From contig CADEDU010000074.1 in the NCBI GenBank assembly GCA_902826155.1, forward strand, positions 1 through 36,801: a stretch of DNA of 36,801 nucleotides, in the 5' to 3' direction. This DNA is from an uncultured beta proteobacterium. GTDB taxonomy: Bacteria > Pseudomonadota > Gammaproteobacteria > Burkholderiales > SG8-39. The notes beneath the pieces are model-generated. The model was given only the letters and a program-made list of their open reading frames with translations, ran no database searches and had not been told where the DNA came from. Position 1 is the first letter of the stretch; every line of letters starts with the position of its first letter. Below are positions 12,571-36,801 of the stretch, one piece after another. Position numbers and translations under genes: made by a program.

Positions 12571-13641
12571 TCAGAGCGCCTCGGCGATCGCTTTGCCCAG
12601 GTCGGCCGTCCTGGCGCGGCCGCCGAGATCCGGGGTGCGCGGGGCGCTGCTGCCGCCGCCCAGTACCGACTCGATCGCGCCGAAGATGCGATCGTGAGCG
12701 TTCTTGTAGCCCAGGAAATCGAGCATCAGTGCAGCCGACCAGATCTGCCCGACCGGATTGGCCACGCCCTTGCCGGCGATGTCGGGCGCCGAGCCGTGCA
12801 CCGGCTCGAACAGCGACGGGAACTTGCGCTCGGGATTGATATTGCCCGAGGGCGCGATGCCGATCGTGCCGGTGCATGCGGGTCCGAGGTCGGACAGGAT
12901 ATCGCCGAACAGGTTGGAGGCCACCACCACGTCGAACCAGTCCGGGTGAAGCACGAAGTTAGCCGCCAGGATGTCGATGTGATACTTGTCGGTGCGGATG
13001 TCGGGATAGGCCTTGGCCATCTCGGCGAAGCGCTCGTCCCAATACGGCATGGTGATCGAGATGCCGTTCGACTTGGTGGCCGAGGTGACGTGCTTCTTCG
13101 CCCGGCGCTGCGCCAGCTCGAACGCGAAGCGCATGATCCGATCGGTGCCGTGCCGCGTGAACGTCGACTGCTGCATGCACACTTCGCGATCGGTGCCTTC
13201 AAAGATGCGACCACCCACCGCGGAGTACTCGCCCTCGGTGTTCTCGCGCACCACGAAGAAGTCGATGTCGCCGGGCTTGCGATCGGCGAGCGGACATTTC
13301 ATCCCGGGCATCAGCCGCACCGGCCGCAGGTTCACGTACTGATCGAACTCACGTCGGAACTTGATGAGCGAGCCCCACAGCGAGACGTGATCGGGGATCT
13401 TCGCCGGCCAGCCCACCGCGCCGAAGAAGATCGCGTCGTGGCCGCCGACCAGTTCGCGCCAGTTGTCCGGCATCATCTGGCCGTGCTTCTCGTAGTAGTC
13501 CCAGCACGCGAAGTCGAAGTGATCGAGCTGCAGCTCGATGCCGTACTTGCGGGCTGCGGCGTCGAGCACGCGCACGCCTTCGGGCATCACTTCCTTGCCG
13601 ATGCCGTCGCCGGCGATGACGGCGATGCGATGTTTGGCCAT
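12571..13641 (-). CDS. Tartrate dehydrogenase / D-malate dehydrogenase-type decarboxylating dehydrogenase
   Basis: Member of the isocitrate/isopropylmalate dehydrogenase family, 356 residues, closest by motif to tartrate dehydrogenases and D-malate dehydrogenases: NAD- and divalent metal-dependent oxidative decarboxylation of a 2-hydroxy acid. Visible landmarks are IAVIAGDGIGKEVMPEG at the start, VVRENTEGEYSAVGGRIF with QQSTFTRHGTDRIMRFAFE (the tartrate dehydrogenase-type substrate loop), VASNLFGDILSDLGPACTG (metal-binding Asp residues) and FEPVHGSAPDIAGKGVANP (NAD-binding). The length matches the family (about 350-360). The ATG at 13641 is preceded by AGGAG at good spacing. Two flavin reductase genes follow on the same strand. 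A Bug binding-protein gene lies upstream beyond two strong hairpins and could supply the acid substrate, which is inference. Confidence 0.92.
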   Translation of the reverse strand: MAKHRIAVIAGDGIGKEVMPEGVRVLDAAARKYGIELQLDHFDFACWDYYEKHGQMMPDNWRELVGGHDAIFFGAVGWPAKIPDHVSLWGSLIKFRREFDQYVNLRPVRLMPGMKCPLADRKPGDIDFFVVRENTEGEYSAVGGRIFEGTDREVCMQQSTFTRHGTDRIMRFAFELAQRRAKKHVTSATKSNGISITMPYWDERFAEMAKAYPDIRTDKYHIDILAANFVLHPDWFDVVVASNLFGDILSDLGPACTGTIGIAPSGNINPERKFPSLFEPVHGSAPDIAGKGVANPVGQIWSAALMLDFLGYKNAHDRIFGAIESVLGGGSSAPRTPDLGGRARTADLGKAIAEAL

Positions 13642-13787: not shown

Positions 13788-14768
13788 CTAGTCGGCGTAT
13801 ACGCCCGCCTTCTTGATCAACGGCCCCCACTTCGCCGTCTCCGCCTTCAACTGCGCTCGCAGCGCATCGGGCGTCGCGCGCGCCGCCGCCACCGGCTCGG
13901 TACCCAGATCGGCCATGCGTGACTTCACGCCACCATCGGCCAGTGCTGCCTGCAATGCGCCAACGAGTTTGTCGACCGCTTCCTTGGGCGTGCTCTTCGG
14001 CGCATAAATGCCGTGCCACACCGCGACTTCGAAGCCCTTGAGCCCCTGTTCATCCAGCGTGGGCACATCCTTGAGGGAAGGCACGCGTGTCTTCGTGGTC
14101 ACGCCGTAGACCTTGATCTTGCCGCCCTTGATCTGGCTGGTGGTGTTGGTGGTCTGGTCGCACATGAAATCGACCTGGCCGCCGAGCAGATCGTTCATCG
14201 CCGGGCCGGTGCCTTTGTATGGAACGGTGGTAAGGTCGGTCTCGATGGCGCTCATGAACAGCATGCCGCACAGATGCGAGGCCGAGCCCAGGCCGGCGTT
14301 GGCGTACGACACCTTGGTCTTGTTCGCTTTCACGTACGCGAGAAGATCTTTGAAGTTGGCGGCCGGGAAGTTGCCGCGCGCCACCAGCGTCATCGGCACG
14401 TCGGAGACCAGTCCGACCGGCTCGAAGTCTTCCATCGGCTTGAAGCGCAGCCGCTGATACAACGCCGGCGCGGTCGACATGCCGATGTGATGCAGCAGCA
14501 CCATGTAGCCGTCGGGCTTCGCTTTGGCGACGCGTTCGGCGCCGATCGTGCCGCCGGCCCCGGCCACGTTCTCGACGATCACGGTCTGCTTGAGTGCAGT
14601 GCCCATCGCCTGGGCGATCGAGCGGGCCAGCGTGTCGGTCGGACCGCCAGCGGCGAACGGCACGACCATCGCGATCGGCTTTTCGGGATAGGCGCTCTGC
14701 GCGACGCAGCTCCATGCTGCCATCGCGAAGGTCATGAGGCCTGACGACAGCTTGCGCGGATTCATCAT
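13788..14768 (-). CDS. Bug-family (TctC-like) periplasmic solute-binding protein
   Basis: Third Bug-type binding protein in the window, 326 residues. The start at 14768 (first of two tandem ATGs) has GGAGA at suitable spacing. The signal peptide runs to SCVAQS. Mature landmarks are AYPEKPIAMVVPFAAGGPTD, QTVIVENVAGAGGTIGAERVAKA, TTVPYKGTGPAMNDLLGGQVDF, LKDVPTLDEQGLKGFEVAVWHG and a C-terminus rich in KAETAKWGPLIKKAG. Its promoter region carries one of the three TTGAC-N4-GTCAA palindromes found here, also present before formate dehydrogenase and fhs. Downstream on the same strand come two hairpins and then the tartrate dehydrogenase-type gene. The ligand is unknown; a small carboxylate would fit the neighbours. 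Confidence 0.92.
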   Translation of the reverse strand: MMNPRKLSSGLMTFAMAAWSCVAQSAYPEKPIAMVVPFAAGGPTDTLARSIAQAMGTALKQTVIVENVAGAGGTIGAERVAKAKPDGYMVLLHHIGMSTAPALYQRLRFKPMEDFEPVGLVSDVPMTLVARGNFPAANFKDLLAYVKANKTKVSYANAGLGSASHLCGMLFMSAIETDLTTVPYKGTGPAMNDLLGGQVDFMCDQTTNTTSQIKGGKIKVYGVTTKTRVPSLKDVPTLDEQGLKGFEVAVWHGIYAPKSTPKEAVDKLVGALQAALADGGVKSRMADLGTEPVAAARATPDALRAQLKAETAKWGPLIKKAGVYAD

Positions 14769-14845: not shown

Positions 14846-14887
14846 AGTCTCGAACGGCTGGCGCGATGGTTGGTTGACTCACGTCAA
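14846..14887 (-). promoter_or_regulatory. Putative activator site and promoter of the Bug gene
   Basis: TTGAC-GTGA-GTCAA (minus strand, 14887 to 14874) is a perfect palindrome. Twenty-two bases downstream on the minus strand is GAGACT (14851-14846) followed by GCCGG, similar in position and in its ACTGCCG part to the element before fhs. The palindrome centre would lie near -41 of the predicted start of transcription, the class II position for CRP/FNR-family activators. The Bug start codon is about 105 bases downstream. The -10 match is weak (3 of 6). Confidence 0.5.
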
Positions 14888-17180: not shown

Positions 17181-18350
<1,170 letters not shown>

Positions 18351-18432
18351 GGCGCAGCGGTCAAGCGCCTCGGTTGCTTTCGTCGGATCTCGAGTTGAAC
18401 AGGTACGAGCAGTCCTTTCCCGGAGCAGAGCG

Positions 18433-19317
18433 ATGTCCATCCTGGTGAACAAGAACACCCGCGTCGTCACCCAAGGGATCACCGGCAAGACCGGCCAGTT
18501 CCACACGCGCACTTCGCGCGAGTACGCGCTGGGCCAGCAGTGTTACGTCGCCGGCGTGAATCCCAAGCGCCCGGGCGAGAACTTCGAGGGCATTCCCATC
18601 TTCGCCACCGTGCGCGAGGCCAAGGAAAAAGCCGGCGCCAATACCTCGGTGATCTACGTGCCGCCGCCCGGTGCCGCGGCCGCGATCTGGGAGGCAGTGG
18701 AAGCCGATCTCGATCTGGTGATCTGCATCACCGAAGGCATCCCGGTGCGCGACATGATCGAAGTGCGCGATCGCATGCGCAAACAGAACCGCCGCACGTT
18801 GCTGGTGGGGCCGAACTGTCCGGGCGTGATCACGCCCGAGGAGATCAAGATCGGCATCATGCCTGGCCACATCCACAAAAAGGGCCCGATCGGCGTCGTG
18901 TCGCGCTCGGGTACGCTCACCTATGAAGCGGTCGGCCAGTTGAGCGAACTCGGATTGGGACAATCGAGCGCGGTGGGCATCGGCGGCGATCCGGTCAACG
19001 GGTTGAAGCACATCGACGTGCTCAAGCTGTTCAACGACGATCCGCAGACCGAAGCGGTGATCATGATCGGCGAGATCGGCGGGTCGGATGAAGAAACCGC
19101 CGCGCAGTGGGTCAAGACCAACATGAAGAAACCGGTGGTCGGCTTCATCGCCGGCGTCACCGCTCCGCCCGGAAAGCGCATGGGGCATGCCGGCGCGATC
19201 ATCTCCGGTGGGAAAGGTACCGCGCAGGAAAAGCTGTCAGTGATGGAGGCCTGCGGAATCAAGGTCACGAAAAATCCCGCGGAGATGGGCAAGCTGCTCA
19301 AGTCGGTGCTGAAGTAG
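18433..19317 (+). CDS. sucD: Succinate-CoA ligase alpha subunit, or related malate-CoA ligase
   Basis: CoA-binding and phosphohistidine-bearing subunit that pairs with the preceding ATP-grasp subunit. The 294-residue protein starts [15 protein letters not shown], with GGAG before the ATG at 18433. The CoA-binding region [39 protein letters not shown], the active-site [14 protein letters not shown] (phospho-acceptor His252) and the ending LKSVLK are all present. Compared with E. coli SucD it has a short insertion before VGPNCPG ([11 protein letters not shown]), similar to the one in malate thiokinase MtkB, and an unusual [12 protein letters not shown] in place of VTPGKGG. Substrate assignment between succinate and malate is therefore uncertain. 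A GNRA-loop hairpin lies nine bases after the stop. Confidence 0.92.
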
Positions 19318-19350: not shown

Positions 19351-19393
19351 TTGACCTGAGTCAATCGCCGCGTTCGCGCGTCGGGGCTACCAT
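19351..19393 (+). promoter_or_regulatory. Putative CRP/FNR-family activator site and promoter of formate dehydrogenase
   Basis: TTGAC-CTGA-GTCAA at 19351-19364 is a perfect palindrome of the general TTGA-N6-TCAA type. Twenty-three bases later TACCAT (19388-19393) is a plausible -10 (4 of 6), giving a palindrome centre near -42, the class II activator position. No -35 hexamer is needed or seen. The -10 lies inside a small inverted repeat, CGGGGC (19382-19387) with GCCCCG (19395-19400). The same layout precedes fhs with identical spacing. The formate dehydrogenase start codon is 116 bases past the palindrome. Confidence 0.55.
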
Positions 19394-19480: not shown

Positions 19481-21247
19481 ATGACCAGCCGCGTCATCCC
19501 GCTCAAAGAAATGAAAGTGCGCCCTACGCCCAAGGGGCGCCAGGTCGACCCCGCCGCGCTGGCCGAAGTGCAGGCGCTGATCGGCCACGAATCGCGCCGA
19601 CGCGATCTGCTGATCGAGCATCTGCACAAAATCCAGGACAGGTTCGGCCATATCGCCGATCGGCATCTCGTGGCCCTCGCCGCGGAGATGAAGATGGCGA
19701 TGACCGAGGTGTACGAAGTCGCCACGTTCTATCACCACTTCGACGTGGTGAAGGACGGCGAGGCCGCCCCGGCCGCGATCACCGTCCGCGTGTGCGAATC
19801 GTGGGCGTGCGAGATGGCCGGTGCGCGCGAATTGCTTGAGAAGTTGCCGGCGATCCTCGGTGCCGAGGTGCGCGTGTTGCCCGCGCCATGCATCGGCCGC
19901 TGCGAATCGGCGCCCGCGTGCAGCGTCGGCCAGCATCCGGTGCTGGGCGCGACGGTCGATGCGGTCAAGGCCGCGGTGGACGCTCGCGCGGTGAAGCATC
20001 CGCCCTCGATCCCGGTCGCCAACGCCAACGCGCTCGACGTGCAGGCGTATCAGCCGCCCGGTGAAGTCAGTCCCGCCTACGTCGATTTCGAACGCTATCG
20101 GGCGAGCGGCGGCTACAACCTGGCCAAGGCGTGCATCGAGAACAAACCCGCCGGCGACCGCAAGCCGCTCACACGCGAAGCCGCGATGACGGCGATGGAG
20201 CACTCGGGCCTGCGCGGTTTGGGCGGTGCTGGCTTCCCGGCCGGGCGCAAATGGAAGATCGTCGCCGCCGAGCCCGCGCCGCGGCTGATGGCGGTCAACA
20301 TCGACGAAGGCGAAGTGGGCACGTTCAAAGACCGCTTCTATCTCGAGCGCGATCCACATCGCTTTCTCGAAGGCGTGCTGATCGCCGCGTGGGCGGTCGA
20401 CATCTTCGAGGTGTACATCTATCTGCGTGACGAGTACGCCGGCTGTCGCGCGATCCTCGAGCAGGAACTCGCTCGGCTGCACGCCAATCCGCCGTGCCGG
20501 CTGCCGGCGATCCATCTGCGACGCGGCGCCGGGGCGTACATCTGCGGCGAAGAGTCCGCGATGATCGAGTCGATCGAGGGCAAGCGCGGCATGCCCAGGC
20601 TGCGTCCGCCGTACGTGGCGCAGGTCGGGCTGTTCGGGCGGCCCACGCTCGAACACAACATGGAGACGCTGTTCTGGGTGCGCGACATCCTCACGCGCGG
20701 GCCCGAGTGGTTCTCCGGACAGGGACGTAACGGCCGCAAGGGGCTGCGCTCGTTCTCGGTTAGCGGACGCGTCAACAAGCCCGGTGTGCATGTCGCGCCG
20801 GCGGGCATCACGGTGCGCGAGTTGATCGAGGAACACTGCGGCGGCATGCAAACGGGTCACGAGTTCTATGCGTACCTTCCAGGTGGCGCGTCGGGGGGCA
20901 TCCTGCCTGCGTCGATGGGCGACATCCCGCTCGATTTCGACACGCTGAATCAGTACGGCTGCTTCATCGGCTCGGCCGCGATCACGATCATGAGCCAACA
21001 CGATCGTGCGATCGATGCCGCGCGCAACTTGATGGGATTCTTCCGCGACGAATCGTGCGGGCAATGCACGCCGTGTCGCGTGGGCACGGCCAAGGCGCTC
21101 GCGTTGATGCGTCAGCCCACTTGGGACGAGCCGCTGCTGCAGGAGCTGTCGGCCGCGATGATGGACGCCTCGATCTGCGGGTTGGGGCAGGCGGCGCCGA
21201 ATCCGTTGCTGTGCGTAATGAAATACTTCCGGCACGAGCTGACATGA
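19481..21247 (+). CDS. fdh1B: NAD-dependent formate dehydrogenase beta subunit (NuoE-NuoF fusion, FDH1 type)
   Basis: Diaphorase subunit of a soluble NAD-dependent formate dehydrogenase: it passes electrons from the catalytic subunit to NAD through FMN. The 588-residue protein is a fusion. Residues 1-170 are NuoE-like with a [2Fe-2S] site (VCESWAC and PCIGRC supply four Cys). Residues about 190-588 are NuoF-like, with RGLGGAGFPAGRKW (FMN/NADH loop), GAGAYICGEESAMIESIEG (NADH-binding) and SCGQCTPCRVGT plus a later Cys in SICGLGQ for a [4Fe-4S] cluster. The fusion and size match the beta subunit of tungsten FDH1 from Methylobacterium rather than the separate FdsG/FdsB subunits. The ribosome site is weak. 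The stop overlaps the alpha subunit start (ATGA), so the two are translationally coupled. Confidence 0.92.
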   Translation: MTSRVIPLKEMKVRPTPKGRQVDPAALAEVQALIGHESRRRDLLIEHLHKIQDRFGHIADRHLVALAAEMKMAMTEVYEVATFYHHFDVVKDGEAAPAAITVRVCESWACEMAGARELLEKLPAILGAEVRVLPAPCIGRCESAPACSVGQHPVLGATVDAVKAAVDARAVKHPPSIPVANANALDVQAYQPPGEVSPAYVDFERYRASGGYNLAKACIENKPAGDRKPLTREAAMTAMEHSGLRGLGGAGFPAGRKWKIVAAEPAPRLMAVNIDEGEVGTFKDRFYLERDPHRFLEGVLIAAWAVDIFEVYIYLRDEYAGCRAILEQELARLHANPPCRLPAIHLRRGAGAYICGEESAMIESIEGKRGMPRLRPPYVAQVGLFGRPTLEHNMETLFWVRDILTRGPEWFSGQGRNGRKGLRSFSVSGRVNKPGVHVAPAGITVRELIEEHCGGMQTGHEFYAYLPGGASGGILPASMGDIPLDFDTLNQYGCFIGSAAITIMSQHDRAIDAARNLMGFFRDESCGQCTPCRVGTAKALALMRQPTWDEPLLQELSAAMMDASICGLGQAAPNPLLCVMKYFRHELT

Positions 21248-24060
21248 CCGCGATCACCCCACAAGAGATTGCCGCGCTGCCCGTGGAGTTCAAGCTCAAC
21301 GGCCAGACCGTCGTCGGCCGCGCTGACGAAACGATCCTGCAGACGGCGAAGCAGTACGGCATCGAGATTCCGCACCTGTGTTTCAAGGAAGGGCTGCGGC
21401 CCGACGGCAACTGCCGCGCCTGCGTAGTCGAGATCAAAGGCGAGCGCGTGCTGGCGCCTTCGTGCTGCCGCACCCCGCGCGACGGCATGGAGGTCACCAC
21501 CGACAGCGAGCGCGCGGTCAAATCGCAGAAGATGGTGCTGGAGCTGCTGCTCTCCGATGTCGCCGAGCAGGCCTACACGAAAAACTCCGAACTCGATCAG
21601 TGGGCTCGCAAGCTCGAGGTCGGCAAGCCGCGCTTCGAAGCGCGCGAGCAGACCAAGGCCGATCTGTCGCATCCGGCGATCGCGGTGAATCTCGATGCGT
21701 GCATCCAGTGCACCCGTTGCCTGCGCGCCTGCCGCGAGGAGCAGGTCAACGACGTGATCGGCTACGCTTTCCGTGGCGATCACTCGAAGATCGTGTTCGA
21801 TCTCGACGATCCGATGGGTGCCAGCACCTGTGTGGCCTGCGGCGAGTGCGTGCAGGCGTGCCCCACCGGCGCGCTCATGCCCGCGCACAACGTCGGCTTG
21901 CAGCAGGTCGACAAGACCGTCGATTCGGTGTGCCCGTACTGCGGCGTGGGCTGTCAGCTCACGTATCACATCAAGGACAACCGCATCCTGCACGTGGCGG
22001 GTCGGCAGGGGCCGTCCAACAAGAGCCGGCTGTGCGTGAAGGGCCGCTACGGCTTCGACTACGTGCACCACAAGCAACGGCTCACCAAACCCCTGATCCG
22101 CAAACCGGGCGTGGCGAAGAATGCCGAGCAGCTGCTCGATCCGGCGCGCTGGGACGACGTGTTCCGCGAGGCGAGCTGGGAAGAAGCGCTGGAGGTTGCC
22201 GCCAAAGCGCTGCGTGACATCCGCGATCAGCACGGCAAGCGCGCGCTCGCGGGCTTCGGCTCGGCCAAGGGTTCGAACGAAGAGGCGTATCTGTTCCAGA
22301 AACTGGTGCGCACCGGCTTCGGCACCAACAACGTCGACCACTGCACGCGGCTGTGCCACGCCTCGTCGGTGGCCGCCCTGATGGAAGGCATCAATTCCGG
22401 TGCGGTGTCCAACCCGGTGCGCGACGTGGTGCACGCCGAGGTGATCTTCCTGATCGGCGCCAACCCGACGGTGAATCATCCGGTTGCCGCGACCTGGATG
22501 AAGAACGCCGTCAAGAACGGCACCAAGCTGATCGTGGCCGATCCGCGCCGTGGTGAACTCGGGCGCCACGCCACGCACTATCTGCAGTTCAAGCCCGACA
22601 CCGACGTGGCGCTGCTCAACGCGATGCTGCACACGATCGTCGAAGAAGGCCTGGTGAACGAGGCGTTCATCCGCGATCGCACCGCCGGCTACGAGGCGCT
22701 GCGCGACAACGTCAAGAAATTCAGCCCCGAGGCGATGGCGCCGATCTGCGGCGTTCCGGCGCAGACTATCCGCGAAGTGGCACGCCTGTACGCCACCTCG
22801 AAGGGCTCGATGATCCTGTGGGGCATGGGCATTTCGCAGCACATCCATGGCACCGACAATGCGCGCTGCCTCATCGCGCTCGCACTGTCGACCGGTCAGG
22901 TCGGCCGCCGCGGTACCGGGCTGCATCCTTTGCGCGGGCAGAACAACGTGCAGGGCGCTTCCGATGCCGGACTGATCCCGATGGTGTATCCGGACTATCA
23001 GTCGGTCGCCAACCCTGAGGCGAAGAGCCGCTTCGAGAAGTTGTGGGGTATGGAGCTCGACGCGAAACCGGGTCTGACGGTGGTGGAGATCATCAAGGCG
23101 GCTGCGGCGAAAGAGATTCGCGGCATGTACGTCATGGGCGAGAACCCGGCGATGTCCGATCCGGATGTGAACCATGCGCGTGAGGCGCTGGCCACGCTCG
23201 ACCACCTGGTGGTGCAGGACATCTTCCTCACCGAGACCGCATCGCTCGCCGATGTGGTGCTGCCGGCCACCGCGTTTCCCGAGAAGACCGGCACGTTCTC
23301 CAATACCGACCGGCAGGTGCAGCTCGGTCGCAAGGCGATCGAACCACCGGGCGAGGCCAGGGAGGATCTGTGGATCATCCAGGAGCTCGCGCGGCGCATG
23401 GGGCTGGACTGGCGCTACGGCGGACCCGCCGACGTGTTCAACGAGATGCGTCAGGCGATGGATTCGATCAAGGGCATCACCTGGGACAGGCTGGAGCGCG
23501 ATTCATCGGTGACGTATCCGTGCGAGGAAGAGGGCGCACCGGGCGACGAGGTGGTGTTCGTCTCGCATTTCCCGACCGCGACCGGTCGTGCGAAGTTCGT
23601 GCCGGCCGATCTGATCAAGGCGGCCGAGCAACCCGATGACGAGTATCCGATGGTGCTCATCACCGGCAGGCAGCTCGAGCACTGGCACACCGGCGCGATG
23701 ACGCGTCGCGCGAGTGTGCTCGATGCGATCGAGCCCGAACCGGTAGTGTCGATCCATCCGCTCGATCTCGATCGACTCGGCGCGCGTGCTGGCGAGGTGG
23801 TGACGGTCGCCTCACGGCGCGGCGAGATCAGCCTGTATGCCCGTGCCGACGAAGGCACGCCGCTCGGTGCCGTGTTCATCCCGTTCGCGTTCTACGAGGC
23901 CGCGGCCAACAAGCTCACCAATCCGGTGCTCGATCCGTTCGGCAAGATTCCGGAGTTCAAGTACTGCGCGGTGAAAGTGACCGCGGGCGGTGCTGCGCCG
24001 GCGCGCGTGTCAGACGGTTTCGGCGGCGGCAGGTCGATCAACGAGATCGCGCCCGCCTGA
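21244..24060 (+). CDS. fdh1A: NAD-dependent formate dehydrogenase alpha subunit (molybdopterin W/Mo, Cys type)
   Basis: Catalytic subunit that oxidises formate to CO2 at a bis-MGD tungsten or molybdenum centre, cytoplasmic, 938 residues. Domains in order: a NuoG-like [2Fe-2S] domain with Cys46, 57, 60 and 74; a two-cluster ferredoxin domain with Cys153/156/159/163 and Cys196/199/202/206; the molybdopterin [4Fe-4S] motif Cys230/233/237/264 (SVCPYCGVGCQ); then the molybdopterin oxidoreductase body. The metal ligand is Cys371 followed by His372 (VDHCTRLCH), so it is not a selenoprotein. The C-terminal dinucleotide-binding domain ends with PEFKYCAVKV. I see no Cys between 75 and 153, so the His-Cys cluster of NuoG/FdsA is absent. 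The adjacent tungstate-type importer favours tungsten. The 3' end overlaps the convergent regulator by 23 bases. Confidence 0.94.
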   Translation: MTAITPQEIAALPVEFKLNGQTVVGRADETILQTAKQYGIEIPHLCFKEGLRPDGNCRACVVEIKGERVLAPSCCRTPRDGMEVTTDSERAVKSQKMVLELLLSDVAEQAYTKNSELDQWARKLEVGKPRFEAREQTKADLSHPAIAVNLDACIQCTRCLRACREEQVNDVIGYAFRGDHSKIVFDLDDPMGASTCVACGECVQACPTGALMPAHNVGLQQVDKTVDSVCPYCGVGCQLTYHIKDNRILHVAGRQGPSNKSRLCVKGRYGFDYVHHKQRLTKPLIRKPGVAKNAEQLLDPARWDDVFREASWEEALEVAAKALRDIRDQHGKRALAGFGSAKGSNEEAYLFQKLVRTGFGTNNVDHCTRLCHASSVAALMEGINSGAVSNPVRDVVHAEVIFLIGANPTVNHPVAATWMKNAVKNGTKLIVADPRRGELGRHATHYLQFKPDTDVALLNAMLHTIVEEGLVNEAFIRDRTAGYEALRDNVKKFSPEAMAPICGVPAQTIREVARLYATSKGSMILWGMGISQHIHGTDNARCLIALALSTGQVGRRGTGLHPLRGQNNVQGASDAGLIPMVYPDYQSVANPEAKSRFEKLWGMELDAKPGLTVVEIIKAAAAKEIRGMYVMGENPAMSDPDVNHAREALATLDHLVVQDIFLTETASLADVVLPATAFPEKTGTFSNTDRQVQLGRKAIEPPGEAREDLWIIQELARRMGLDWRYGGPADVFNEMRQAMDSIKGITWDRLERDSSVTYPCEEEGAPGDEVVFVSHFPTATGRAKFVPADLIKAAEQPDDEYPMVLITGRQLEHWHTGAMTRRASVLDAIEPEPVVSIHPLDLDRLGARAGEVVTVASRRGEISLYARADEGTPLGAVFIPFAFYEAAANKLTNPVLDPFGKIPEFKYCAVKVTAGGAAPARVSDGFGGGRSINEIAPA

Positions 24061-25159
24061 GCGTGGCGCTGCGCGCATCGTCAAGCGGCGCGTCGGGTTC
24101 GAAGGCGGCAGCCACCGGTGCGGTGTCGCCTGCGCCGGTGATCGTGTAACCAGCCCAGCGTCGCGCCATTCGCGCAAAGGGGGCGTCGCGCAGTCCTTCG
24201 CACAACGTGCGCACGAGTTCGCCGTTCGCCCGACGGATCGGTGCCGCGAGCCAGTAGCGCTCACGCCTGATCGTAACGAAGCCAAGACCGTGCCGCTGCG
24301 CGGCAGCTTTCAAGCCGAAGCTTGCATCAGCCTCACCGGAGGCCACCAGCGCCGCGACCGCGGAATGCGTGTGCTCTTCCGCGCTGTACCCACGGACGTC
24401 GTCGGGCGCGATGCCCTGTTCGCGCAGCAACTGATCGATCAGCATGCGCGTGCCCGAGCCCGCCTGGCGGTTGACGAAGCGGATGCGCCGGCGCGCGACG
24501 TCGGCCAGGCCCCGCAGGCGCAGCGGGTTGCCGCGCGCAACGATCAATCCCTGCTCGCGCGCGGCGAAGCGGATCAGCGTCACGCTTCGCTGCGGCAGCA
24601 ATCGATGCACGGTTGCGCTGTTGGTGCGATCGAGCGGCAGCGCCAGATGGAAGCCGGCCAGATCGGCACGACCCGCGCGCAACGCTTCGAGACTTTCCAG
24701 GCTGCCGCGAAATTCCACCGAGGTGACCACTCCGGCCGTCCGCGCCCAGCGATCGCACCAGTCCGCAAGCAGCAGATCGTGACTGGCGACGATGCGCAAC
24801 CCCGGGCGTGTGCGCGCAGCGGGCGATGACCTCGTTGCGCCAGTCAGCGCGAACGGTTCGATTCCGGCGAGCGCCTTGGCCGTGTACTCGAGCAGCGCCT
24901 CGGCGTTCGCGCTCAGCGCGGCGCCCGTGCCTCGCTGCATCAGCACGAGCGGCTCGCCCACCAGACGGGCGGCATCGTTCACCAACCCCCAGGCGGCGCG
25001 ATAGGAAATACCGCTCTCCGCTGCGGCGTGGCGCAACGTGCCGTGTTTGCGCACACCGGCGAGCAGACCCAGAACCCTGGCGTCGAGGGCAGTTCCGGCT
25101 GCGTCAGTGCGCCAGCTGATCTGCGGGTGGAGGCGCCTCATATATGCAGAGACCGACAT
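24038..25159 (-). CDS. ModE-like winged-helix regulator with oxyanion-binding (PBP-like) domain
   Basis: Predicted transcription factor of 373 residues that probably senses tungstate or molybdate. Residues about 25-95 form a ModE-type winged helix (LLAGVRKHGTLRHAAAESG, then ISYRAAWGLVNDA), the same pattern as the ModE DNA-binding domain. Instead of ModE's Mop domains, residues about 115-340 resemble a periplasmic-binding-protein fold (RIVASHDLLLADW, FVNRQAGSGTRMLIDQLL, GEADASFGLKAAAQ), as found in one-component regulators of metal oxyanion uptake. It is divergent from tupB and convergent with formate dehydrogenase. A repeated element, ATATGCA-N7-ACATATT, covers the region of its start and a second copy lies 98 bases upstream, suggesting autoregulation. 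The start is uncertain: ATG at 25141 would give a protein six residues shorter and place the first element wholly upstream; neither has a clear ribosome site. Confidence 0.87.
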   Translation of the reverse strand: MSVSAYMRRLHPQISWRTDAAGTALDARVLGLLAGVRKHGTLRHAAAESGISYRAAWGLVNDAARLVGEPLVLMQRGTGAALSANAEALLEYTAKALAGIEPFALTGATRSSPAARTRPGLRIVASHDLLLADWCDRWARTAGVVTSVEFRGSLESLEALRAGRADLAGFHLALPLDRTNSATVHRLLPQRSVTLIRFAAREQGLIVARGNPLRLRGLADVARRRIRFVNRQAGSGTRMLIDQLLREQGIAPDDVRGYSAEEHTHSAVAALVASGEADASFGLKAAAQRHGLGFVTIRRERYWLAAPIRRANGELVRTLCEGLRDAPFARMARRWAGYTITGAGDTAPVAAAFEPDAPLDDARSATLRRARSR

Positions 25160-25162
25160 ATT
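25142..25162. promoter_or_regulatory. Putative operator 1 of the ModE-like regulator
   Basis: ATATGCA-N7-ACATATT, containing the inverted half-sites ATATG and CATAT ten bases apart. It coincides with the regulator's 5' end (ATG candidates at 25159 and 25141), so binding would block its own transcription. The second copy, with identical fixed bases and spacing, is at 25240-25260. Confidence 0.5.
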
Positions 25163-25239
25163 GGGATGAAGTGGCGATGGTCGCTATGCTCGCGCGTTTG
25201 CCGCGATCGATAAGCAGCGGATGCGCGGCGCGATCCATG

Positions 25240-25260
25240 ATATGCACGATGGTACATATT
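25240..25260. promoter_or_regulatory. Putative operator 2, upstream of tupB
   Basis: Second ATATGCA-N7-ACATATT; the seven variable bases differ completely in character from copy 1 while all fourteen fixed bases match. It ends 73 bases before the tupB start and includes AT-rich sequence (CATATTAA) that could be the tupB -10 region, so binding would be expected to repress the importer when metal is plentiful (inference). Confidence 0.5.
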
Positions 25261-25333
25261 AAACAGCAGCGGGCTGCAGGTCTCCACCCTGTAGCGGCCA
25301 AGCGCAGCGGCGCCGCGGCGCACTGAATCCGCC

Positions 25334-26038
25334 TTGGACACCCTCGTCACGGCGATCGGCCACGGACTGGCGCTGATCGCCACGTTCGATTCGAAGCTGC
25401 TCCAGATCGTCGGTCTGAGTCTGGCGGTGAGCCTGTCGGCCGTCGCGCTCGCCAGCATCGTCGCGCTGCCGCTGGGTGCGGTGCTGGCGATCGAACGGTT
25501 CCGCGGACGCGCGCTGGTCATCGTGGTGCTCAACGCGCTGATGGGGCTGCCGCCGGTGGTCGTGGGGCTGCTGGTGTATCTGCTGCTCTCGCGCGCCGGA
25601 CCGCTCGGTGCGTTCGGTCTGCTGTTCACGCCGCAGGCGATGATCATTGCGCAGACCGTCCTGATCGCGCCGATCATCGCCGCGCTGGTGCGTCAGGCGA
25701 TCGAGGATGCCTGGGTGGAGTACGAGGAGCAGTTGCGGTCGCTGGGCGTGCGTGGCTGGCAGGCGGCGCTGACGCTCCTCTGGGACACGCGCTTCTCGCT
25801 GCTCACCGCGGTGCTCGCCGGCCTGGGTCGCGCCGCCGCCGAAGTCGGTGCGGTGATGATCGTCGGCGGCAACATCGACGGCGTCACGCGCGTGATGACC
25901 ACCGCGATCGCACTGGAGACCAGCAAAGGCGATCTGCCGCTCGCCCTCGGGCTCGGTGTGGTGCTGGTGGTGATCGTGGTGCTGTTGAACGCCGCTGCTT
26001 ATCTGGTCAAGGAAGCGGCGCAGCGGCGCCTGGGCTGA
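25334..26038 (+). CDS. tupB: Tungstate-type ABC transporter, permease
   Basis: Inner-membrane permease of an oxyanion ABC importer, 234 residues, TTG start. Several hydrophobic segments are visible (about residues 25-55, 62-88, 98-118, 150-180, 200-225). The family blocks NALMGLPPVVVGLLVYLLLS and LLFTPQAMIIAQ are typical of TupB. The permease motif that docks with the ATPase occurs as EQLRSLGVRGWQAALTLL, and GRAAAEVGAVMIVGGNIDG follows, as in TupB. It is the first gene of tupBCA, six bases before tupC. No clear ribosome site precedes the TTG, so the start is uncertain by a few codons. Probably controlled by the divergent ModE-like regulator through the operator pair upstream. Confidence 0.9.
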   Translation: MDTLVTAIGHGLALIATFDSKLLQIVGLSLAVSLSAVALASIVALPLGAVLAIERFRGRALVIVVLNALMGLPPVVVGLLVYLLLSRAGPLGAFGLLFTPQAMIIAQTVLIAPIIAALVRQAIEDAWVEYEEQLRSLGVRGWQAALTLLWDTRFSLLTAVLAGLGRAAAEVGAVMIVGGNIDGVTRVMTTAIALETSKGDLPLALGLGVVLVVIVVLLNAAAYLVKEAAQRRLG

Positions 26039-26044
26039 GCCGAC

Positions 26045-26773
26045 ATGCCGAACATCGATTCGATCCTGCCGCTGGCCCTCGAGGACGTTTCATTCGAGGC
26101 GGGCGGACGCTCGATCATCGATCGCGTGTCTCTGGTGCTCGAAGACGGTGCGCGCACCGTGATTCTCGGTGCGAACGGCGCCGGCAAGAGCGTGCTGATG
26201 CGGTTGTGCCATGGCCTGCTGCAGCCGACGCGCGGGCGAGTTGCCTGGGCGCACGCCGATGCCGAGCAAGCGCATCGCCGCCAGGCGATGGTGTTCCAGC
26301 GTCCGGTGATGCTGCGTCGATCGGCGCTTGCCAACATCGAGTACGCGTTGGCCGTGGCCGGACGCCCGGCTGGTCAGCGCGTGCACGACGCCCGCGCGGC
26401 GCTGGCGCTGGTCGGTCTGGAGGCATTGGCCGCGAGCCCGGCACGACGGCTGTCCGGGGGCGAGCAGCAGCGCTTGGCGCTCGCGCGTGCGCATGCCCTG
26501 CATCCGCAAGTGCTGTTCCTGGATGAGCCCACGGCCAATCTCGACCCGACCGCGACTGCCGAGGTGGAGCGGATCATCCGCGCGATCCACGCAGGCGGCA
26601 CCAAGATCGTGATGAGCACCCACAACCTCGGTCAGGCGCGGCGTCTGGCCGACGAAATCGTGTTTCTGCACCAGGGGCGCCTGGTCGAGCGCACATCGGT
26701 CGAGCTGTTCTTTACCGAACCGCGCTCACCGGAAGCCCGCGCTTTTCTCAACGAGGAACTCCCATGGAAATGA
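26045..26773 (+). CDS. tupC: Tungstate-type ABC transporter, ATP-binding protein
   Basis: ATPase subunit of the same importer, 242 residues, peripheral on the cytoplasmic side. It has Walker A GANGAGKS, Q-loop VFQRPVMLRRSALANIEYA (the typical form in TupC/WtpC proteins), signature LSGGEQQRLALARA, Walker B VLFLDEPTANLDP and the switch His in MSTHNLGQARRLADEIVFL. No C-terminal regulatory Mop/TOBE domain is present, so inhibition by metal must occur elsewhere, presumably through the regulator. It starts six bases after tupB, and its 3' end overlaps tupA by ten bases. Confidence 0.93.
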   Translation: MPNIDSILPLALEDVSFEAGGRSIIDRVSLVLEDGARTVILGANGAGKSVLMRLCHGLLQPTRGRVAWAHADAEQAHRRQAMVFQRPVMLRRSALANIEYALAVAGRPAGQRVHDARAALALVGLEALAASPARRLSGGEQQRLALARAHALHPQVLFLDEPTANLDPTATAEVERIIRAIHAGGTKIVMSTHNLGQARRLADEIVFLHQGRLVERTSVELFFTEPRSPEARAFLNEELPWK

Positions 26774-27612
26774 CTTCGATTCGCGCGATCCGCAGCAGGT
26801 TCGTTGCTGTGGTTGGAGCGGCTTGCGCGTTGGCGAGTACTGCCGCCGTGCAAGCGCAAGGTTCGTTCATCACGGTAGCGTCCACCACCTCGACCGAGCA
26901 GTCGGGCCTGTTCGGGCACCTGCTCCCGCTGTTCGAGAAATCGAGCGGCATCAAGGTCCGGGTCGTGGCGTTGGGTACCGGCCAGGCACTCGACATGGGT
27001 CGGCGCGGCGACGCCGACGTGGTGTTCGTGCACGATCCCGCCGCGGAGAAGAAGTTCGTCGATGAGGGTTACGGCATAGGCTACAAGCAAGTGATGTACA
27101 ACGATTTCGTGCTGATCGGACCGAAGGCCGATCCCGCGAAGATCGCCGGCGGCAAGGACATCCTCGAAGCATTGCGCCGCGTCGCGTCCTCGCAGGCCGC
27201 ATTCGTGTCGCGCGGCGACAAGAGCGGTACCCATGCCGCGGAGCTGCGCTACTGGAAGCAAGCCGGCGTTGATCTGGCCGCGCAAAAAGGCGCCTGGTAT
27301 CGCGAAACCGGATCGGGCATGGGGCCGGCCCTCAACACGGCTTCGGGCATGAACGCCTACATCCTGACCGATCGCGGCACATGGCTCGCATTCAAGAATC
27401 GTGGCGAACTCGCGATCGCCGTCGAAGGCGACCAGAAACTGTTCAATCAATACGGGATCATGCTGGTCAACCCTGCCAAGCACCCGCACGTGAAGAAGGC
27501 GCAGGGCGAAGCGTTCATCGCTTGGGTGGTCTCGGCCGCCGGACAGGGTGCGATTGCCGCGTACAAGATCGGCGGCGAGCAGCTGTTCTTTCCGAACTAC
27601 AAGGCGCAATGA
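26764..27612 (+). CDS. tupA: Tungstate-type ABC transporter, periplasmic binding protein
   Basis: Periplasmic oxyanion receptor of 282 residues. The signal peptide has a hydrophobic core at about 13-29 with cleavage near VQAQ. The mature protein opens with FITVASTTSTEQSGLF; the TTST stretch at residues 41-44 is the TupA-type ligand loop. The blocks VVALGTGQALDMGRRGDADV, VHDPAAEKKFVDEGYG, NDFVLIGPKADP, SRGDKSGTHAAELRYW and GMNAYILTDRGTW all follow the TupA family, which prefers tungstate over molybdate. The ATG at 26764 lies inside the end of tupC, with GAGGA upstream. Its position next to a formate dehydrogenase of the tungsten-using type supports the tungstate assignment over molybdate. Confidence 0.93.
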   Translation: MEMTSIRAIRSRFVAVVGAACALASTAAVQAQGSFITVASTTSTEQSGLFGHLLPLFEKSSGIKVRVVALGTGQALDMGRRGDADVVFVHDPAAEKKFVDEGYGIGYKQVMYNDFVLIGPKADPAKIAGGKDILEALRRVASSQAAFVSRGDKSGTHAAELRYWKQAGVDLAAQKGAWYRETGSGMGPALNTASGMNAYILTDRGTWLAFKNRGELAIAVEGDQKLFNQYGIMLVNPAKHPHVKKAQGEAFIAWVVSAAGQGAIAAYKIGGEQLFFPNYKAQ

Positions 27613-30585: not shown

Positions 30586-31293
30586 GTGGCAAATCGCGAT
30601 GCGTTGCCGGGTCGCCCGGCAGCGAAGCGTCGCTCCGGCAATGGCGTGGCGAGCGAAACGCTCACCGATCGGGCCTATCTCGATCTCGAGGAGCGGATCG
30701 TCACGTTGCGACTCGCGCCGGGCACTGCGGTTTCCGAGCAGATGCTCGCCGAGCAGCTCGGCATCGGTCGAACGCCGATCCGCGAAGCGCTGCAGCGGCT
30801 GGCGCGTGAACGACTGGTGCAGATCCTGCCGCGGCGCGGCGTGATCGTGTCGGACATCAATGTGAAGAGCCAGCTGCGCCTGCTGGAGGTGCGTCGCGAG
30901 GTCGAGCGGTTGGTGGCTCGCAGTGCAGCAAAGCGCGCCACGAACGAAGAACGGGAACAGTTCGCCGAACTGGCACGCGCGTTCGAGCGGGCGGCTCGAA
31001 CCAACGACGACACGGCGTTCCTGCGGGTCGATCGTGCCTTCAACGAGCTGTGCCTGGAGGCTGCGCGCAACGAGTTCGCCGCCGGCGCGATGGGGTTGAT
31101 GAACGCCCTGTCGCGGCGCTTCTGGTACCTGCACTACAAACAGGCGGCCGACATGCCGGTCGCAGCGAAGCTGCATGCCGATGTCGCGCGGGCGATCGCT
31201 CAGGGCAACGGGCGGGCGGCGGGTGCCGCGCTCGACCGGCTTCTCGACAACATCGAGGCGTTCACCCGCGGCACGGTCGATACGGACTTGTGA
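30586..31293 (+). CDS. GntR-family transcriptional regulator (FadR/FCD subgroup)
   Basis: Predicted metabolite-responsive repressor or activator of 235 residues, GTG start. Residues about 24-92 are a GntR winged helix (LTDRAYLDLEERIVTLRLAPG, then LAEQLGIGRTPIREALQRLARERLV and PRRGVIVSDI). Residues about 95-225 are an all-helical FCD effector domain. In FCD domains an Asp and three His usually bind a metal; here Asp149 is present but the first His is Asn153 (DRAFNEL where DxxFHxx is usual), while His183 and His197 remain possible ligands. It lies 65 bases after the PanB-family gene and 97 before the hydroxylase-family gene on the same strand, so it probably controls this cluster. Confidence 0.92.
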   Translation: MANRDALPGRPAAKRRSGNGVASETLTDRAYLDLEERIVTLRLAPGTAVSEQMLAEQLGIGRTPIREALQRLARERLVQILPRRGVIVSDINVKSQLRLLEVRREVERLVARSAAKRATNEEREQFAELARAFERAARTNDDTAFLRVDRAFNELCLEAARNEFAAGAMGLMNALSRRFWYLHYKQAADMPVAAKLHADVARAIAQGNGRAAGAALDRLLDNIEAFTRGTVDTDL

Positions 31294-36260: not shown

Positions 36261-36303
36261 TTGACGCCCGTCAATGTTGTGGGCTTGGCCCACTGCCTAC
36301 ACT
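36261..36303 (+). promoter_or_regulatory. Putative CRP/FNR-family activator site and promoter of fhs
   Basis: TTGAC-GCCC-GTCAA at 36261-36274 is a perfect palindrome. Twenty-three bases later TACACT (36298-36303, 4 of 6 matches to the -10 consensus) gives exactly the same layout as before formate dehydrogenase. A second inverted repeat, GTGGGC-TTG-GCCCAC (36279-36293), lies in the spacer. The fhs start codon is 85 bases past the palindrome. The rest of the 36136-36359 gap holds no gene that I can support. Confidence 0.55.
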
Positions 36304-36359: not shown

Positions 36360-36801
36360 ATGGCATCGGATATCGAAATCGCCCAGGCTGCCAAGATGCA
36401 GCGCATCGCCGCCGTCGCGCGCGACAAGCTCGGCATCGGCGACGAGCACCTGGAGCCGTTCGGACACTACAAGGCGAAGGTCTCGCTTGCGTATCTCGAT
36501 ACGCTCAAGAGCAAACCCGACGGCAAGCTGATCCTGGTCACGGCCATCAGCCCCACGCCGGCGGGCGAAGGCAAGACCACCACCACGGTCGGTCTGGGCG
36601 ATGCGCTCAATCACATCGGCAAGAAGGCGATGATCTGCCTGCGCGAACCCTCGCTCGGTCCGGTGTTCGGCGTGAAGGGCGGGGCAGCGGGCGGCGGCTA
36701 CGCGCAGGTCGTGCCGATGGAAGACATCAACCTGCATTTCACTGGTGATTTCGGCGCGATCCAGCTCGCCAACAATCTGCTGGCGGCGATGATCGATAAC
36801 C
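36360..36801 (+). CDS. fhs: Formate-tetrahydrofolate ligase, 5' part (cut by window end)
   Basis: ATP-dependent joining of formate to tetrahydrofolate to give 10-formyl-tetrahydrofolate, the entry step from formate into folate C1 metabolism. Only the first 147 codons are in the window; the full protein is usually about 550-560 residues. The N-terminus [16 protein letters not shown], then [14 protein letters not shown], the ATP loop [16 protein letters not shown] and the family signature beginning [19 protein letters not shown], followed by DINLHFTGD, leave no doubt. The ATG has GGAG upstream (TTGGAGACACCC). It shares a putative activator-promoter layout with formate dehydrogenase at 19.4 kb, which fits two enzymes competing for or sharing formate. 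Confidence 0.95.

Follow-up and report, generated by a model that had tools for sequence, protein, structure and literature searches.

Two of three palindromes of the form TTGAC-N4-GTCAA in 36,801 bases of DNA from an uncultured beta proteobacterium (the window, by which the whole stretch is meant) and, less surely, the remaining one are probably operators of an oxalate-to-formate regulon of the Burkholderiales, which would be activated by a protein of the CRP/FNR family. Oxalate, an acid common in plants and fungi, is broken down by bacteria, which feeds formate metabolism and the formation of carbonate in soil. The original prediction pointed out that two of the targets handle formate, and this stands for the genes behind sites 2 and 3 (Table 1), but the wider theme appears to be oxalate catabolism with formate as its product, since the order and content of the gene island to which they belong suggest that the formate genes form the later steps of an oxalate pathway.

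In the proposed scheme, a wingless CRP/FNR-family protein with no conserved cysteine, whose gene is divergent from that for oxalyl-CoA decarboxylase (oxc) or formyl-CoA transferase (frc), would bind the palindrome as a dimer centred near −41.5/−42.5 and recruit RNA polymerase, by class II activation, to promoters that have a good −10 element and no −35. In the presence of oxalate, or of a product such as formyl-CoA, oxc and frc would be switched on jointly for oxalate breakdown, along with tctCBA, whose position suggests that it probably serves oxalate uptake, and with fdhBA for formate oxidation and fhs for formate assimilation. Carbon would then pass through frc and oxc to formate and CO2, with the formate either oxidized to CO2 by fdhBA or drawn by fhs into the one-carbon pool.

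Table 1. Palindromes, predicted promoter elements and genes of the window
Feature	Position	Strand	Basis or remark
Site 1 palindrome TTGACTCACGTCAA (minus strand: TTGACGTGAGTCAA), operator of uncertain membership	14874..14887	.	
Site 1 −10-like GAGACT, weak, spacer 22	14846..14851	-	
tctC-type tripartite tricarboxylate transporter receptor, downstream of site 1	13788..14768	-	
Tartrate dehydrogenase, downstream of site 1, after the tctC-type gene	12571..13641	-	TIGR02089, 573 bits, cut-off 470
Site 2 palindrome TTGACCTGAGTCAA, predicted class II operator of fdhB	19351..19364	.	Sequence scan, spacing
Site 2 predicted −10 TACCAT, spacer 23	19388..19393	+	Spacing, composite score
fdhB, fused NuoE/NuoF-like formate dehydrogenase subunit	19481..21247	+	
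fdhA, formate dehydrogenase alpha subunit	21244..24060	+	TIGR01591 over cut-off (searched as 21055-24060)
GntR/FCD regulator gene	30586-31293		Sole DNA-binding regulator recognised in the window
Site 3 palindrome TTGACGCCCGTCAA, predicted class II operator of fhs	36261..36274	.	Sequence scan, spacing
Site 3 predicted −10 TACACT, spacer 23	36298..36303	+	Spacing, composite score
fhs, formate-tetrahydrofolate ligase, cut by the window end	36360..36801	+	247 bits, model residues 2-147

The Palindromes and Their Predicted Promoters

A recount agreed with the original prediction in the number and positions of the palindromes: TTGAC-N4-GTCAA is present exactly three times, and no further TTGA-N6-TCAA was found across the window. 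Dinucleotide shuffles gave an expectation of 0.05 for the ten fixed bases, close to the 0.04 or so first estimated, with at least three occurrences in 0 of 100 shuffles, and of 0.32 per window for the looser TTGA-N6-TCAA. All three sites are outside called genes, 105, 116 and 85 bases ahead of a start codon for sites 1, 2 and 3, respectively, just as had been claimed (85–116 bases), in a window that is 92% coding by the gene caller used here rather than about 95 percent.

Among the relatives' sites that precede the regulator-linked gene, fhs or fdhB, a TAnnnT element follows the palindrome at a distance of 22–24 bases in 75 of 89, while each of the eight other spacer triplets tried yielded TAnnnT in 0–5 of the same sites. 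This spacing places the palindrome near −41.5/−42.5, which is the position of class II activation, and bears out the proposal of a CRP/FNR-type operator near −41/−42; if the first −10 base is taken as −12, the centre of the palindrome comes to lie at −41.5 for a spacer of 22 and at −42.5 for one of 23, and transcription starts are predicted on that footing. In the 74 promoters with a spacer of 22 or 23, the C and G at positions 5 and 10 are present in 82 and 85%, the palindrome is followed by G or T and then by G, and T and A are conserved within the −10, while the remaining spacer is close to background (mean 0.11 bit); the conserved bases reported here are those left out of the selection. 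The −35 position overlaps the end of the palindrome and the first spacer bases, where GG/TG is found and no TTGACA, so the absence of a −35 was correctly called.

The three sites of the window fare differently when judged by this architecture. The −10-like element announced at 22–23 bases is recognisable at sites 2 and 3 and weak at site 1. A composite model trained on the relatives scored site 2 at 28.5 and site 3 at 25.5, compared with a minimum of 17.7, a 10th percentile of 26.2 and a median of 31.2 for the training promoters; site 1, at 15.9, falls under every one of them, and the best scores in 12 first-order random sequences ranged from 0 to 20. A small spacer term is included in the scores of the window sites and omitted from those of the training promoters. 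Sites 2 and 3 thus fit class II operators, with starts that are predicted from the spacing to the −10.

Site 1 lies upstream of a tctC-type gene and a tartrate dehydrogenase gene. At the syntenic place in G382, the nearest relative examined, no palindrome was found within 3 mismatches; the tartrate dehydrogenase and an FMN reductase are kept there and another gene replaces tctC. No tartrate dehydrogenase homologue was found in the stretches beside the FGGY kinase of G015, G346 and G347. The palindrome at site 1 is real, and its membership of the same regulon is uncertain; that the pattern marks three promoters is well supported for sites 2 and 3 and is not borne out for site 1, given its weak −10 and the lack of a G382 counterpart.

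Two neighbourhoods of fdhBA may be mentioned in their own right. Directly 5' of fdhB (17181-19317) is a succinate-CoA/malate-CoA ligase pair of the sucCD or mtkAB type, which is kept before fdhB in G382, G383, G015, G346 and G347. Beside fdhA (24038-27612) are genes for a tungstate-type ABC transporter, TupB- and TupA-like and below cut-off, and a gene resembling the C-terminal part of a molybdopterin biosynthesis protein. It is possible that the formate dehydrogenase is tungsten-dependent.

Distribution in Related Genomes

The palindrome outnumbered a reversed control pattern by 61 to 13 in eight genomes and by 43 to 4 in another set of five, with a weaker excess (25 to 11) in the first five genomes. 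Scatter at random or within genes was not what the relatives displayed: outside the window, in ten related genomes, 89 of 93 sites were not in called genes, compared with 86.5% of random positions falling in genes. Of the four in-gene sites, one (position 3164574 of G027) arises because a spurious long ORF covers fdhB; it is still counted. The collection of 93 took in five of the seven palindromes of G027, four of the six of G057 and three of the four of G382, with those of G383, G389 and G148 outside it, and the genes of the GC-rich G142, G346 and G347 were called with a codon model trained on known genes.

TAnnnT at spacer 22–24 was present in 30 of 96 collected sites, against a random rate of 0.8%, and absent in 66. 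Two denitrifying relatives, G346 and G347, have this same TTGAC palindrome ahead of cytochrome cd1 genes, and further sites lie before a tetrapyrrole methylase gene in the former and a gene for a Fer4/FMN-bind protein in the latter; some sites in these genomes belong to other regulons. FNR-type regulators of different signals can evidently share the word, which means that C/G at the fifth base does not by itself name the regulator. The original prediction had read the C/G variant as the mark of a family member other than FNR; a non-FNR binder is indeed likely, but the variant is not diagnostic, as the cd1 genes indicate and as do the TTGAT half-sites that are also used at fhs and oxc in the closest relatives of the window. 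Clusters of TTGAC-N4-GTCAA were also seen, six in about 25 kb (L326, L327; G346 C59) and four in about 18 kb (L328, L329; G347 C37), in which TAnnnT at spacer 22–24 is mostly missing.

An Oxalate-Catabolism Island

In Burkholderiales relatives, the palindrome was found before fdhB, before fhs, before oxc or frc and, in G015, G346 and G347, before tctC, and so it spans what can be described as an oxalate-catabolism island. The gene order of the window recurs, whole or largely, in G382, G383, G015, G346 and G347. In G382, as in the window, tartrate dehydrogenase, FGGY kinase and two succinyl/malate-CoA ligase genes are followed by the palindrome, fdhB and fdhA, and, after an interval, by panB, a fatty-acid hydroxylase, dctPQM, phyH, one other gene, the palindrome and fhs; beyond fhs come terC, tctCBA, a CRP/FNR-type gene, the palindrome, oxc and frc. 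The run from fhs into terC, tctCBA, the regulator and oxc is on a single contig in G382, G015 and G346. The island was also seen, with variations, in G015, G346, G347, G180, G142, G102 and G007, and its parts are dispersed along one contig in G027. In G180 the identity of oxc and frc is firm, at 1003 and 563 bits, both above cut-off. In G347, a palindrome with TAAAAT lies ahead of a PanE-family gene, which fits an oxalate regulon.

FdhB matches were present in 76 of 300 sampled Burkholderiales genomes, and the best within the family of G015 were those of G383 (81% identity) and G382 (80%). FdhB sequences 74% and 72% identical to that of the window also occur in records titled Acidobacteria and Bryobacteraceae (L001, L002), either through transfer or because the contigs were mis-binned.

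The pattern had been expected before fdh and fhs orthologues, and it was found there in company with the candidate regulator described below. A palindrome before fdhB was present in 16 of 48 regulator-bearing genomes, with 32 lacking it, and in 0 of 19 others (Fisher p 0.003, kinship ignored); before fhs the figures were 26 of 42 and 1 of 8 (Fisher p 0.017, kinship again ignored). Both tallies count a TTGA-N6-TCAA anywhere between 350 bases ahead of the start and 20 bases beyond it, and two TTGAG sites (G081, G230) at odds with class II are among those counted. Left out were 9 of the 76 fdhB genomes (G153, G221, G035, G130, G233, G275, G184, G054 and G215), none with a regulator match, and 7 of 57 for fhs (G137, G295, G047, G235, G092, G247 and G175); G109, with 24 bases in view, was entered as a negative for fhs.

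The Candidate Regulator

The candidate is a CRP/FNR-family protein of about 200 residues whose gene is divergent from oxc or frc. It was matched in 53 of the 300 Burkholderiales genomes and in 0 of 369 drawn from the wider class, the latter being weak evidence. A TTGA-N6-TCAA lies upstream of its gene in 41 of the 53, which suggests self-regulation, and the exact palindrome is missing in 12; two more upstream regions have the palindrome with one mismatch, followed by CTATAGT. Of the 41 palindrome-bearing loci, 34 have oxc or frc as the divergent gene, and the other seven (L139, L142, L144, L164, L169, L170, L172) have an acetolactate-synthase/2-hydroxyacyl-CoA-lyase-like enzyme, which scores below the cut-offs of those models because the locus end cuts the genes. 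Should this neighbour be a lyase, formyl-CoA would be a shared product or substrate. A cobalamin riboswitch (RF00174, 75–80 bits) was noted upstream of the regulator in the small genomes G036, G081 and G230 (L174, L175, L176), on the strand leading away from the regulator; these three have no palindrome there.

The regulator gene is absent from the window. It is about 6–8 kb from the fhs start in G382, G015, G346 and G347, and synteny would place that of the window's organism 6–8 kb past the start of fhs.

The protein matches PF00027, a cyclic-nucleotide-binding-like domain, over cut-off; PF13545 was unreported for L119 and precomputed for a few homologues. All 53 regulators have a recognition helix of the form (P/A)-E-T-(L/M)-S-R, which aligns with E-T-V-S-R of FNR proteins from the same order minus their wing: in the alignment, the candidate has no wing region and its chain ends a few residues past the helix. 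No invariant cysteine was seen among 17 and 23 aligned homologues, so the regulator is not an FNR-type iron-sulfur sensor, and no match to the cAMP-contact residues of CRP was seen by eye in the alignment. Searches for homologues scored 8000 clusters, all but four at E 1e-20 or better; among the 120 matches listed, the names are solely CRP-like or CRP/FNR family, and relatives in plasmid records are all below 60% identity. The closest PDB sequence is 3dn7, and the predicted structure (mean pLDDT 58.8) was too poor for use.

This protein is the best candidate for the binder of TTGAC-N4-GTCAA. More tentatively, with chances put somewhat short of even, it may be a dedicated sensor-activator of the oxalate-to-formate pathway in the Burkholderiales, whose direct signal is oxalate or a formyl-CoA/oxalyl-CoA ester instead of oxygen, nitric oxide or cAMP. 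One type of class II operator would then tie together decarboxylation, uptake, and the oxidation and assimilation of formate, and a formyl-CoA ligand would explain the 2-hydroxyacyl-CoA-lyase-like divergent neighbour in some genomes.

Other Binders

The sites could instead belong to FNR/ANR (oxygen) or DNR (nitric oxide), with a general regulator tolerating C/G at the fifth base and fdh and fhs being induced by low oxygen or NO, a reading that is unlikely although it has real points in its favour. The TTGA-N6-TCAA core is identical, the palindrome lies ahead of cytochrome cd1 genes in G346 and G347, and the Fnr model matched 56 of 72 genomes. Class II-like sites are also present in two genomes with no regulator match, before fhs in G217 and, in G389 (2.5 Mb, outside the 300-genome draw and reported apart from the tallies), before both fdhB (TTGAT-N4-GTCAA with TAAAAT) and fhs (TTGAC-N4-GTCAA with TATAGT), although in both genomes incomplete assembly may be the cause. 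Against FNR is the finding that, of 19 regulator-lacking genomes, none has a site at fdhB although an FNR match is present in 15, whereas 5 of 9 regulator-bearing genomes with no FNR match do have one. Genomes with no FNR match carry the palindrome upstream of the regulator just as often (8 of 10) as those that have one (33 of 39), and G382 and G383, the closest to the window, lack an FNR match but carry the regulator and palindromes at fdhB and oxc, with G382 having the fhs palindrome too. In beta-proteobacteria, moreover, DNR has been reported with CTTGATnnnnATCAAG (PMC1274295). FNR is a worse predictor of the sites than the candidate regulator, with FNR presence defined as an NCBIfam Fnr match at E ≤ 1e-30, beyond which more distant DNR-type proteins may lie.

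It is rather improbable that another CRP/FNR paralogue is the binder and the oxc-linked protein a mere neighbour or co-regulator. Such paralogues are many, with 8–15 HTH_Crp_2 matches per genome in eight genomes (E ≤ 0.001, weak ones included), and the 12 regulator genes without the exact upstream palindrome would be in keeping with this. Taken as a group, none of them was found to be island-linked as the oxc-linked gene is, and the suggested self-regulation of that gene also speaks against them.

Chance palindromes or ordinary TTGAC −35 boxes make a very improbable explanation. TTGAC does resemble a −35, and site 1 has no good −10, but the excess of three palindromes over the chance expectation and the position of the relatives' sites outside genes count against chance, and the fixed 22–23 bases from palindrome end to −10 are too long for a −35 box. 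This reading is contradicted for sites 2 and 3, and not fully for site 1. The GntR/FCD regulator, put forward by being the only DNA-binding regulator recognised within the window, can practically be dismissed, as GntR/FCD operators are built differently and G382 has the palindromes while no GntR gene was found there between panB and the fatty-acid hydroxylase.

Comparison with Known Systems

The candidate activator resembles FNR/ANR and DNR in its E-T-x-S-R recognition helix and in the TTGA-N6-TCAA core, and class II activation is used by FNR. FNR proteins of the same order have 5–9 cysteines and a wing, whereas no cysteine of the candidate is invariant and it lacks a wing. A likeness was also seen to short CRP/FNR proteins of the Bacteroidota (3dn7), which share a length of about 195 residues, a T-P-E-x-L-S motif and an alignment that reaches both chain ends, although identity is below 30% among the plasmid matches listed; no function is known to be common to the two.

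The closest precedent for the operator is that of HcpR, a CRP/FNR-family protein of delta-proteobacteria and two cyanobacteria, with the operator wyTTGACnnnnGTCAArw, or ATTTGACCNNGGTCAAAT (PMC1274295, PMC545781). The palindromes of the window match the HcpR operator TTGACnnnnGTCAA, so an operator of this type is already known. Rodionov and colleagues noted that Ser or Pro at the position of CRP R180 in HcpR correlates with wyTTGACnnnnGTCAArw (PMC1274295), and the candidate has Pro or Ala there (numbering from the alignment made here). The sites described for HcpR precede hcp and frdX, in contrast to oxc/frc, fdh and fhs here, and the candidate differs from HcpR in that its chain ends right past the recognition helix.

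As for the pathway, the same one operates in Cupriavidus necator, where frc-oxc has in its vicinity apbA2, the gene for a panE2-type enzyme, without which growth on oxalate is slower (PMC7486775); the portion of that account drawn on here names no CRP/FNR regulator. Nor was a dedicated regulator of oxalate catabolism, of the CRP/FNR family in particular, found in titles or abstract beginnings among the matches listed from the open-licence literature. The regulon and its regulator thus appear to be undescribed, while the mechanism is of a known kind. The analysis offers a concrete candidate regulator gene, an operator, several target promoters and predicted start sites, all directly testable, and a CRP/FNR protein that has the recognition helix of its relatives but not their wing could help to show how members of the family select their operators.
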